NCBI GenBank assembly: GCA_947167235.1
Contig: CAMVHF010000004.1
Location: 1 to 49,798, forward strand
Direction of reading: 5' to 3'
DNA: 49,798 bases
From: an uncultured Alphaproteobacteria bacterium
GTDB lineage: Bacteria; Pseudomonadota; Alphaproteobacteria; RF32; CAG-239
In this document: positions 23,395-26,370 of the stretch, piece by piece
Position numbering within the stretch: the stretch's first letter is position 1
Layout of the letters: the number at the start of each line of letters is the position of its first letter
Translations under genes and position numbers: made by a program
The notes under the pieces: model-generated
What the model was told of the DNA's origin: nothing
Databases searched by the model: none
The model's input: only the letters and a program-made list of their open reading frames with translations

Positions 23395-23413
23395 TGAGAT
23401 GATTTGAAAAAAG

Positions 23414-23440
23414 AAAACCGCACGTTATTGTGCGGTTTTT
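23414..23440. terminator. Intrinsic terminator between convergent genes
   Basis: aaaaccgcac-gttatt-gtgcggtttttt; contains the stop of the minus-strand ORF ending at 23425. Confidence 0.85.
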
Positions 23441-23901
23441 TCATGTTTTCTGCGGATGAATACCGCGTAGGTAGCAGATAGAAGCGGGATAATTAAACAA
23501 CCGGATCCCATAATTATCAGAGCAAGATATATGTATTCCGGTGCGATGATATCTGCGGGAGCAAACTGTGCCCAAGCGAAAAGACAACCGTAAAAAATGA
23601 TGAAAATATAGAAGAATAACCCAAAATGACATAAATAAACGGCTGTTCGCGGATAATTATCTATTATTTTTTGTAAAAAGGCAGGTACTCTGTCTGTCCA
23701 TAGGCAAACGAAAAACAATACTAAAAATATATAAAAACATCCGGTTGATATTACGGATGTACCATCATCAACAAGGGATATATATTTTTCCGGCGTTATC
23801 AGCGGCAGAAGACGAATTGCTGATTTTATAATGTAATTGAGAACTTCTAAAATTATCCCTAAAATACAGAGCAAACCAGCTAAAAAATTTAGTTTTGACA
23901 T
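23425..23901 (-). CDS. Four-TM membrane protein, unknown function (accessory locus)
   Basis: 158-aa hydrophobic ORF. Confidence 0.6.
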   Translation of the reverse strand: MSKLNFLAGLLCILGIILEVLNYIIKSAIRLLPLITPEKYISLVDDGTSVISTGCFYIFLVLFFVCLWTDRVPAFLQKIIDNYPRTAVYLCHFGLFFYIFIIFYGCLFAWAQFAPADIIAPEYIYLALIIMGSGCLIIPLLSATYAVFIRRKHEKTAQ

Positions 23902-23926
23902 TTTATATCCTTATTTTAAATTCCTT

Positions 23927-24505
23927 TTACTGTTTGAAGAAAAGGTGGGTAATCAAAATTAAAGATATTGATATTATCCAGCATATCATTATGTATAATA
24001 AAGGATGTTTCAATAAAGGACTTCGCAGATTTAAGTCCGAATTATCTGCGCTTGGAATACATAACAAAATGAGAAGTGGACCGTAAGAAATATGGCTGAA
24101 GCGCAATAAATTTATAAAGACACTCTCGTCTGATGGTAAATATGATGTGTATAATGCACTTCGAAATAAAGTGATAATTGTTATATATAGAATCCAAAAT
24201 GTTCCGTTGTAATTAAAATCACGACATCTTTTTTGAATAGCCGCTAAAAGTGCGTACAGTGATAATAAACACAAGATATAGGTTATTATAGGATTTGTCA
24301 ATTTGCCAATACCGGATACGATTTTATAAAATATCAGCAATATCAGGAAAAATTGACCTCTGCTTAATCGTCCGTCAAACGAATAGAAAGGGGTTATCTT
24401 TTCTGTTCCAAATATCAGAGCACGAAAAAGTCGATAAAAAGGCATAAAGATTTCATTCTTTATGAAATCAGATAATTGGGAAAATATATTTTTAATTGTA
24501 TACAT
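23927..24505 (-). CDS. DUF805-like membrane protein
   Basis: FYSFDGRLSRGQFFLILLIFYKI...IQKRCRDFNYNGTFWILYI matches the DUF805 layout. Confidence 0.7.
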   Translation of the reverse strand: MYTIKNIFSQLSDFIKNEIFMPFYRLFRALIFGTEKITPFYSFDGRLSRGQFFLILLIFYKIVSGIGKLTNPIITYILCLLSLYALLAAIQKRCRDFNYNGTFWILYITIITLFRSALYTSYLPSDESVFINLLRFSHISYGPLLILLCIPSADNSDLNLRSPLLKHPLLYIMICWIISISLILITHLFFKQ

Positions 24506-24520
24506 TTTAAGCCTTTTTCA

Positions 24521-24560
24521 CTTTTACCGAGTATGATTTTGATATCATACCCGGTAAAAG
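24521..24560. repeat. Inverted repeat, 17-bp stem, between the tagged protein A and the DUF805-like gene
   Basis: cttttaccgagtatgat-tttgat-atcatacccggtaaaag, one G-T pair; no strong T tract. Confidence 0.7.
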
Positions 24561-24579
24561 TCAATAATTATATGTAAAA

Positions 24580-25128
24580 TTACAGAAGTTTCTTACCTAA
24601 AAGAGCCTCATAATAGTATTTCAGCAGCTTTGAGCTTGTGTCTATAGTACTATTTGCAATGTTATTTATCCCATCTAAACCAAATTGTTTAGCTTGGTTT
24701 TGCAATTTTTGTTGCCTATTTGAATAAGCGTTGTCGAATAGATTATCGACAGTGTTGCCGTAATAATTATCAGTAATACCGTTAAGAAAACGTTCTGTTC
24801 CTCCGGCTATACCTTGAGTAAATCCGCTTAATCCTGCCGAGGTTACACTTCTTAGACCTGACGGTCTAGGTGAATTATTTGAATTTTCTTTACTTTCTGG
24901 GATTGTACTCCATGCATAATTTTTATCATCGCGAATGTTATATTCCGCGACTTTAGGCACTTGAATATTTTGCAACATCGGTAAATTATTTGCATAATAT
25001 TGTGCCAATGCTCTTTTATTTGCGCGTTTGAAGTTGTACTCAATTTCATCGCGTAAAGAAAATTTTGAATGATCGACATCAAATTCATCAACCATTGTGT
25101 TTCTATTTATTTTATATAATGGTTTCAT
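24580..25128 (-). CDS. Tagged protein A: shared N-terminal module plus unique C-terminus
   Basis: MKPLYKINRNTMVDEFDVDHSKFSLRDEIEYNFKRANKR...; ATG at 25128 with aaaaggg upstream. The track start at 25266 is unlikely because it runs through the leader hairpin. Confidence 0.7.
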   Translation of the reverse strand: MKPLYKINRNTMVDEFDVDHSKFSLRDEIEYNFKRANKRALAQYYANNLPMLQNIQVPKVAEYNIRDDKNYAWSTIPESKENSNNSPRPSGLRSVTSAGLSGFTQGIAGGTERFLNGITDNYYGNTVDNLFDNAYSNRQQKLQNQAKQFGLDGINNIANSTIDTSSKLLKYYYEALLGKKLL

Positions 25129-25150
25129 GATTTTTTCCCTTTTAAAAAAG

Positions 25151-25195
25151 GAAAACCGCACGTCTAATGATGTGCGGTTTCCGGTTAATACAAAA
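25151..25195 (-). promoter_or_regulatory. Hairpin leader preceding protein A, duplicated before protein B
   Basis: gaaaaccgcacgt...gtgcggtttccggttaatacaaaa; stem aaaccgcac/gtgcggttt at 25153-25161 and 25172-25180. Confidence 0.7.
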
Positions 25196-25198
25196 GAA

Positions 25199-25528
25199 TC
25201 AGTTACACTGTGTAACGGAAGCGTCAATACATCTGGCAGTTTTCCAATTATGATAGATTTCATCATTGAAGCGGATGAACCCCCATATCATTAAAATAGA
25301 AAGACCTAGAAAAATGATCCGTCGGAGATTAAATGATGATATGATGCACCATGCACATATAGCATAGAAAATTATTATTATTCCTGTAACTATATACCAA
25401 TTAAGAATATTTTTATAATCTGCCGAAATACCGACTTCAATATAAACCATTCCCATAAAAAACATAGGCAAACACAGTATCAAACTGCGTTTTAGCATGG
25501 CATATCCGTGAAGTAATAACTTATTCAT
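25199..25528 (-). CDS. Small membrane protein (109 aa) between tagged genes A and B
   Basis: Three or four hydrophobic segments; lies immediately upstream of the A leader hairpin. Confidence 0.6.
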   Translation of the reverse strand: MNKLLLHGYAMLKRSLILCLPMFFMGMVYIEVGISADYKNILNWYIVTGIIIIFYAICAWCIISSFNLRRIIFLGLSILMIWGFIRFNDEIYHNWKTARCIDASVTQCN

Positions 25529-25586
25529 TTTTATTAATTTCCTTTATTAGTAGTTAATATTAAAATTAACACTTATTTGTTTAATG

Positions 25587-26165
25587 TCAATAAATATCTT
25601 CGTAATCATCCGGATTTACATAAGATTTTGGGTTTGTTGGGCAGCTTTGTCGTAAGGATAAGCCATTTCTGGCTCCATTCCAACCGCGTTGATTGGCATG
25701 CCAATCTTTTCTTACATCGGCCAACGGATCACCTGAAGCAATACCCCAAAGTTCTCTGCCTGTACTGATTGCCTTTCCGACGGTTTGTCCCCATAATCCG
25801 CGTTTAGCAGCTTCATAGTTTGCTTTACAATGAAAGAAATTATCTGCACCTACTAAACCTGTTTTCCTCAAATCTTGGTAGTTTCGTAGCATATCTTTTG
25901 TAGGAGCCAGTATTCCTGTACGAGTTGTTCCCGGATACTCATGGTAATTATCTAAATAGTTATTTAATTGCTGAGCAGTTTTCTCTCCCCAGTCGGAGGA
26001 TGTATATACCTCAGCGGGTGTAAGATAGTTATTTATTTCTTGTTTGCTTCTTTCTTTGGCGCGTTTGAAGTTGTACTCAATTTCATCGCGTAAAGAAAAT
26101 TTGGAATGGTCGACATCAAATTCATCAACCATGGTTGTCGGATTTATTTCATAAAGTTTTGTCAT
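25587..26165 (-). CDS. Tagged protein B: shared N-terminal module plus distinct C-terminal domain
   Basis: MTKLYEINPTTMVDEFDVDHSKFSLRDEIEYNFKRAKERS...GADNFFHCKANYEAAKRGLWGQTVGKAISTGRELWGIASGDPLADVRKDWHANQRGWNG; aaggaaa upstream. Confidence 0.75.
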   Translation of the reverse strand: MTKLYEINPTTMVDEFDVDHSKFSLRDEIEYNFKRAKERSKQEINNYLTPAEVYTSSDWGEKTAQQLNNYLDNYHEYPGTTRTGILAPTKDMLRNYQDLRKTGLVGADNFFHCKANYEAAKRGLWGQTVGKAISTGRELWGIASGDPLADVRKDWHANQRGWNGARNGLSLRQSCPTNPKSYVNPDDYEDIY

Positions 26166-26184
26166 GTTATTTTCCTTATAAAAA

Positions 26185-26231
26185 AGAAAACCGCACGTTT
26201 GTTAACGCACGGTTTTCCGGTTAATACAAAA
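26185..26231 (-). promoter_or_regulatory. Hairpin leader preceding protein B (copy of the A leader)
   Basis: gaaaaccgcacgtttgttaacgcacggttttccggttaatacaaaa. Confidence 0.7.
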
Positions 26232-26263
26232 AAAAGAACGCAAGTTCAAAAGAACTTCGTTCT
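26228..26263 (-). terminator. Intrinsic terminator-like hairpin in the B leader
   Basis: Minus strand: agaacgaagttc-tttt-gaacttgcgttct followed by a T run (A8 at 26228-26235 on plus). Confidence 0.75.
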
Positions 26264-26370
26264 GCCTAAAAGAGTGAATTGTCACACTTATTCACTCTAT
26301 AAAACAGAGTATCATACAAGTCACTTGATGTCAAATTCTTCTGCAACTTGTGGATAAAATTATTAATTTT

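Follow-up and report, generated by a model that had tools for sequence, protein, structure and literature searches.

Short N-terminal tags join interchangeable predicted toxins in a family of gut Alphaproteobacteria and may load them onto a domesticated podovirus-like particle

A block of five genes in a 49,798-nucleotide stretch of DNA from an uncultured alphaproteobacterium of the CAG-239 lineage (contig CAMVHF010000004.1; the whole 49.8-kb stretch is called the window here) appears to belong to a family-wide system of modular toxins. Two of the five, gene A (25587..26165, minus strand, 192 aa) and gene B (24580..25128, minus strand, 182 aa), encode predicted toxins that begin with the same short module, the tag, and end in different C-terminal domains, the tips. 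Judged by sequence, tag, tip and downstream membrane partner form a modular system with displaced tips that is tied to genomes with a virion gene cluster. It is very probable that this is a polymorphic toxin-immunity system, in which toxicity and protection are predicted. The likeliest carrier of the tagged proteins is not a classical secretion system but a domesticated podovirus-like particle whose genes lie elsewhere in the genome; delivery by this particle has about even odds.

Tagged proteins and their downstream partners

The first-pass annotation of the window had described two minus-strand genes with a common N-terminal module and unrelated C-termini. Indeed, MVDEFDVDHSKFSLRDEIEYNFKRA is identical between the N-termini of A and B, and the remainder of the two proteins is unrelated. 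The DNA under this segment (about 70 nt) has 2-3 mismatches between A and B, a near-identity that excludes chance and implies a recent common copy. The tag module spans 26052..26165 (minus strand) in A, where it has a short form (residues 1-38) with a small beta region plus a helix in the structure model, and 25018..25128 (minus strand) in B.

When the 142 genomes of the order were searched, the tag was found in 61 of them, in 6 of 16 genera, all from one family of gut Alphaproteobacteria. This order-wide search overturned the view from the first sample that the tag is confined to one genus. There are up to 14 copies per genome, and the window's own genome has the tag in 8-9 places. The genomes are metagenome-assembled genome (MAG)-type assemblies, in which contigs often break at the repeated tags. 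The best 80 of 138 matches to the tag pattern in GTDB came from uncultured, mostly gut or rumen Alphaproteobacteria or from unclassified proteobacterial MAGs. The one exception among these 80 was a small contig that is probably misbinned.

The 64 tagged open reading frames (ORFs) in the sampled genomes fell into more than a dozen C-terminal clusters. Pfam identified serum amyloid A (SAA), Tlde1/YkuD, GH108 (1e-18), pesticin/phage lysozyme and SLT tips, with the Tlde1 tips above the cut-off (34.8 and 36.1 versus 30.1 bits), and no confident family was found for the clusters that we named Gzip, TGAT, YNLGY, DKYKH, c4, c6 and c7. Thus, the constant module with swapped C-termini, first suggested from A and B, recurs in dozens of genomes, where it carries a dozen or more kinds of C-terminus. 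Several of these kinds are known antibacterial effector domains, and the domain content agrees with the earlier suggestion that the variable C-termini are effectors.

A partner with a predicted transmembrane (TM) segment, by a simple hydropathy count, was present for 41 of the 43 toxins having a close downstream ORF, against a background of 33% of ORFs of that size. Gene pairs similar in both toxin and partner numbered 73, whereas 2000 shuffles gave 11.8 on average and never more than 28. The partner changes with the C-terminus far more closely than in shuffled pairs, in keeping with the proposal that the membrane genes are cognate partners. Among 17 truncated tags, 16 were downstream of an intact tagged gene on the same strand; none was upstream and none on the opposite strand. 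By analogy, this layout is the pattern of displaced Rhs/CdiA toxin tips. Taken together, the features found are those of polymorphic toxins: a constant N-terminal module with variable C-termini, a downstream partner family that tracks the tip, and orphan or displaced modules, including A', a relative of A in the genome G010. Two loci (L110:5022-6592 and L091:4424-5470) each have a series of related immunity-like membrane genes in tandem after a single toxin, which would be expected if orphan immunity genes are collected.

The first-pass annotation had named as fatal to its view a tag limited to A and B, or a lack of linkage to membrane genes; across the relatives, neither is the case. Its reading of a recruitment or secretion module with effector C-termini and membrane immunity proteins fits the wider sequence data and is supported by them.

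The tips of genes A and B

By sequence and by the fold of its model, the tip of A is an SAA domain, and SAA has already been described as a toxin tip (eLife 2025, PMC12419801). Residues 88-166 of A (25668..25904, minus strand) matched Pfam SAA (9.6e-18), and A matched human SAA1 in the PDB (9.2e-11). The AlphaFold (AF2) model of A had modest confidence (pLDDT 61, pTM 0.49), and the 7 best Foldseek matches of the model were all SAA crystal structures (TM-score to target 0.60-0.69). The window's own genome has a second tagged SAA gene. The gene directly downstream of A, tm109 (25199..25528, minus strand), encodes a 3-TM protein that is the candidate immunity partner of A, and an equivalent pair is found at the same site in G010.

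In the lipocone study (PMC12419801), prok-SAA and Min-Wnt domains are presented as polymorphic toxin tips that are predicted to act on lipid head groups, with immunity provided by membrane or periplasmic proteins, including a four-cysteine family. The tagged SAA tips resemble the published ones in both the toxin tip and the kind of immunity protein: SAA tips other than that of A are mostly followed by an 80-aa Cys-rich partner, which fits the four-cysteine family when matched by description, not by sequence comparison. Gene A differs from the published tips in its 3-TM partner and in a degraded sNxxGR motif. No link of SAA tips to this tag or to this kind of particle was found in the text of PMC12419801 that was consulted. 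An acquisition of SAA from an animal host is not needed, since bacterial SAA toxins have been published as the source of the animal ones. A role of A in anti-phage defence, suggested by a single weak PADLOC match (NsnC, 0.0012), is not favoured.

The variable C-terminal domain of B (24598..24852, minus strand), delimited by alignment with homologous tips, is glycine-rich and helical, had no Pfam match, and gave a model too poor for a fold search. Homologous tips occur at L088, L128 (two genes) and L138, and B-type tips stand behind a different tag at L122, L148, L154 and L167. Downstream of B lies the gene of its candidate immunity partner, a multi-TM protein of 192 aa (23927..24505, minus strand). 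The first-pass annotation had called this protein DUF805-like; a Pfam DUF805 match exists (9.2e-5), and its 23.3 bits are below the gathering score of 25.7, as are the scores of the homologues of the protein. Elsewhere, such homologues are directly downstream of B-type tips under two different tags. An orphan toxin-immunity pair is present at L015:8474-8767, where a DUF805-like protein comes after a tagless B-type tip of 97 aa.

The virion cluster and delivery of the tagged proteins

The virion operon in these genomes has the order terminase-scaffold-capsid-g204-adaptor-nozzle-like protein (PHROG 5107)-GNAT-p6121, and the cluster also encodes a portal (1.4e-111), a GroES-like protein, fibres and an endolysin, with a repressor-like helix-turn-helix gene at its edge. 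No integrase or replication gene was recognised in the cluster. The capsid gene is present in 28 of 29 genomes of the genus and in 84 of the 142 order genomes, and is single-copy in nearly every carrier. Two genomes (G028 and G084) have two or three capsid copies, and the second copy in G028 is divergent (62%) and perhaps represents a related active prophage. The virion genes diverge in step with their hosts (Mantel r 0.62, p 0.0005), and dN/dS values of 0.015-0.19 indicate purifying selection on the cluster. These results suggest that the cluster is a vertically inherited, domesticated podovirus-like element. Like a gene transfer agent (GTA), it combines structural and lysis genes with vertical inheritance and purifying selection, and has no recognised replication or integration genes.

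The capsid gene was found in 58 of the 61 tag genomes (Fisher p 1.6e-15, with related genomes treated as independent). In several genomes tagged genes end the virion operon: one follows it at L013 (in the window's own genome), L028, L065, L122, L125 and L139. Two further genera have four genomes in which tagged genes are downstream of the operon on the same strand. In all, four kinds of short N-terminal tag stand at this operon position, and they draw on one tip pool. The further kinds number at least three (ETVRQTLERV, PGES.YYL and SYAAYGG) and lie at or near the virion operon end with the same C-terminal pool (L148, L150, L153, L154, L158, L161, L166-L168, L155 and L026).

We infer from these sequence patterns that the tips are toxins, that the partners are immunity proteins, that the cluster makes a particle, and that the tag loads the toxins. 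In the proposed model, recombination would fuse the short tag to interchangeable C-terminal toxins, which would mostly target the cell envelope. The SAA (lipocone) tip of A is predicted to act against lipid head groups or lipid-linked precursors of the cell wall, and the glycine-rich helical tip of B is possibly membrane-active. The membrane protein directly downstream would be the producer's immunity partner (tm109 for A, the DUF805-like protein for B), and new tips would insert behind the tag, pushing old tip-immunity pairs downstream as orphans. The tag would be a loading signal that places the toxins on or into domesticated podovirus-like (GTA-like) particles encoded in the same genome. 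The particles would be released by the lysis genes of the cluster and would harm competing relatives that have no matching immunity gene. We consider this whole model, with particle delivery included, slightly more probable than not. The broader proposal, that a family of gut Alphaproteobacteria keeps the particle as a weapon or as a weapon-carrying GTA, with recombining tagged toxins and membrane immunity as payload, is tentative and falls a little short of an even chance.

Several observations weigh against this model. There are 26 capsid-positive genomes without the tag and 3 tag-positive genomes without a detected capsid gene, and the co-occurrence statistic counts related genomes as independent. 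Roughly 50 of 62 tagged genes, including A and B, are not adjacent to virion genes. The tag and the virion protein p6121 have no homology detectable by profile comparison, and a derivation of the tag from p6121, suggested by a shared 'GYET' look, is thus unsupported. As for the tips, that of B has no known homologue family and a poor model (pLDDT 46). In A, the lipocone sNxxGR motif of helix 4 reads ANQRGW, with W for R, and most other tagged SAA tips keep NxxGR. Because of this substitution and the 3-TM partner, the activity of A is less certain: A may be an SAA-domain protein that lacks the lipocone family activity, or a weakened enzyme. Since tm109 differs from the usual Cys-rich SAA partner, the pairing of A with tm109 rests on two genomes.

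It is rather unlikely that the same toxin-immunity system uses the tag as a signal for a VirB-type type IV secretion system (T4SS), for an unrecognised exporter or for release by lysis only, with the virion link due to shared ancestry or insertion site. Such a route would suit the position of most tagged genes far from virion genes, and 116 of 142 genomes, that of the window among them, have a VirB10 homologue. However, VirB10 is found in about 80% of genomes with or without the tag and is missing from at least 11 tag-positive genomes. The T4SS is common yet unrelated to the tag, whereas the capsid gene accompanies the tag almost everywhere. T4SS killing effectors are marked by co-occurrence with a T4SS and by a conserved C-terminal signal; the C-termini of the tagged proteins are variable, and a T4SS may still export them. 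The shared position of the four short-tag kinds behind the virion operon is a further argument against other exporters. Delivery by a type VI secretion system (T6SS), as for MIX/RIX-type effectors, was rejected because the sheath gene is absent: VipB was found in 0 of the 29 genus genomes, with a positive E. coli control. Across the family, VirB10/TrbI homologues are part of very long open frames of about 1400-2100 aa, for example at G000:C19:9209-9808, and one frame of 25213 aa was probably read through unknown bases.

Podoviruses place ejection proteins at a position that matches the one right after p6121. From this known gene order, the tagged proteins could be internal virion or ejection proteins whose wall-degrading tips aid DNA entry, and the membrane proteins could be holins or superinfection-exclusion proteins. 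The SLT, GH108 and lysozyme tips and the multi-TM partners would fit such roles. However, many copies belong to chromosomal cassettes that are not near virion genes, orphan tips occur in displaced positions, partner families track tip families, the virion cluster has its own endolysin, and SAA and Tlde1 tips serve as toxins elsewhere (PMC12419801). We therefore regard this explanation as improbable. Some tags are indeed broken by stops or contig ends, but it is highly improbable that the cassettes are functionless remnants of a decaying prophage. Intact ORFs make up most of the tagged set, purifying selection acts on the virion cluster, and an entire bacterial family has kept the system.

The proposed delivery of tagged toxins by a podovirus-like particle can be compared with three known systems. 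The MuF polymorphic toxins (Jamet et al. 2017, PMC5576092), the nearest published kind as regards phage carriage, have a phage-derived N-terminal module, a variable C-terminal toxin and a proposed delivery by phage particles, and they are common in the gut. Their domain differs from the tag, lies in the packaging module of complete temperate Firmicutes phages and is joined to toxins with mostly cytoplasmic targets. In contrast, the tags in these Alphaproteobacteria are short and unrelated, the cluster is inherited vertically and has no recognised replication genes, and the many scattered cassettes encode mostly envelope-directed tips with membrane immunity. Pfam scans of the tagged proteins gave no MuF match. 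The Rhs/CdiA systems also have displaced tip-immunity pairs downstream of the active gene that are swapped by recombination in a shared stretch, but the carrier here is a tag of 40-90 residues and not a giant Rhs or filamentous haemagglutinin-type protein. FpGTA, the first podovirus-like GTA (Nat Commun 2026, PMC12946183), resembles the virion cluster in its structural and lysis genes, its podovirus-like nature, its gut host and the lack of recognised replication genes. Its host belongs to an unrelated phylum, and DNA packaging by the element described here is putative. The text of PMC12946183 mentions no toxin, and a partial literature search found no paper joining a GTA-like element to polymorphic toxins. 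The carrier of the tagged toxins looks new. It would be a new carrier class for polymorphic toxins, in which very short tags go together with a domesticated podovirus-like cluster conserved throughout a family of gut bacteria with small genomes. Should the particle prove to be the vehicle, the question of how toxins without a known secretion system are delivered would be linked to that of why GTA-like elements persist, and particles from these gut bacteria could be sequenced and analysed by proteomics to test both. Toxin-immunity pairs could explain the retention of such elements, since kin would punish the loss of the matching immunity gene.

The block between nth and the Mla operon

All five ORFs of the block, with plausible starts, are on the minus strand, and the tagged genes are interleaved with those for small membrane proteins, as the first-pass annotation had reported. 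PHROGs and NCBIfam searches gave nothing useful for the window proteins. The fifth gene, tm158 (23425..23901, minus strand), encodes a 4-TM protein. By eye, it resembles in size, in its 4 TM segments and in short motifs the 152-153 aa partner of 'YNLGY' tagged toxins at L129 and on a viral contig (L028); BLAST gave no match between tm158 and these partners at 1e-3. Because of this resemblance, and because a YNLGY toxin is absent from the block, tm158 is probably an orphan, a left-over immunity gene for that toxin type.

The block is an insertion, since the site is empty in two related genomes: in G016 and G014 (L269 and L270), 3 bp separate nth from the Mla lipoprotein gene, which agrees with the earlier description of an accessory insertion between the Mla operon and nth. 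At the same site, G010 has the tagless A' (86% identity to A) with tm109' (51%), and G021 has a different tagged toxin with a 4-TM partner. The nth-mla site is therefore an insertion hot spot.

The hairpin motif GTGCGGTTTTC occurs exactly three times in the window, each time in a terminator-like hairpin on the minus strand: just upstream of A (26186..26217), between tm109 and B (25151..25181) and after tm158 (23413..23439). These three borders frame the block as two cassettes, A with tm109 and B with the DUF805-like gene and tm158; the first hairpin starts cassette 1, the second separates the two and the third ends cassette 2. Similar hairpins precede short-tag genes at L110 and L126-L129. In the window, the hairpins immediately precede the ribosome-binding sites of tagged genes, and control by attenuation or antitermination is possible.
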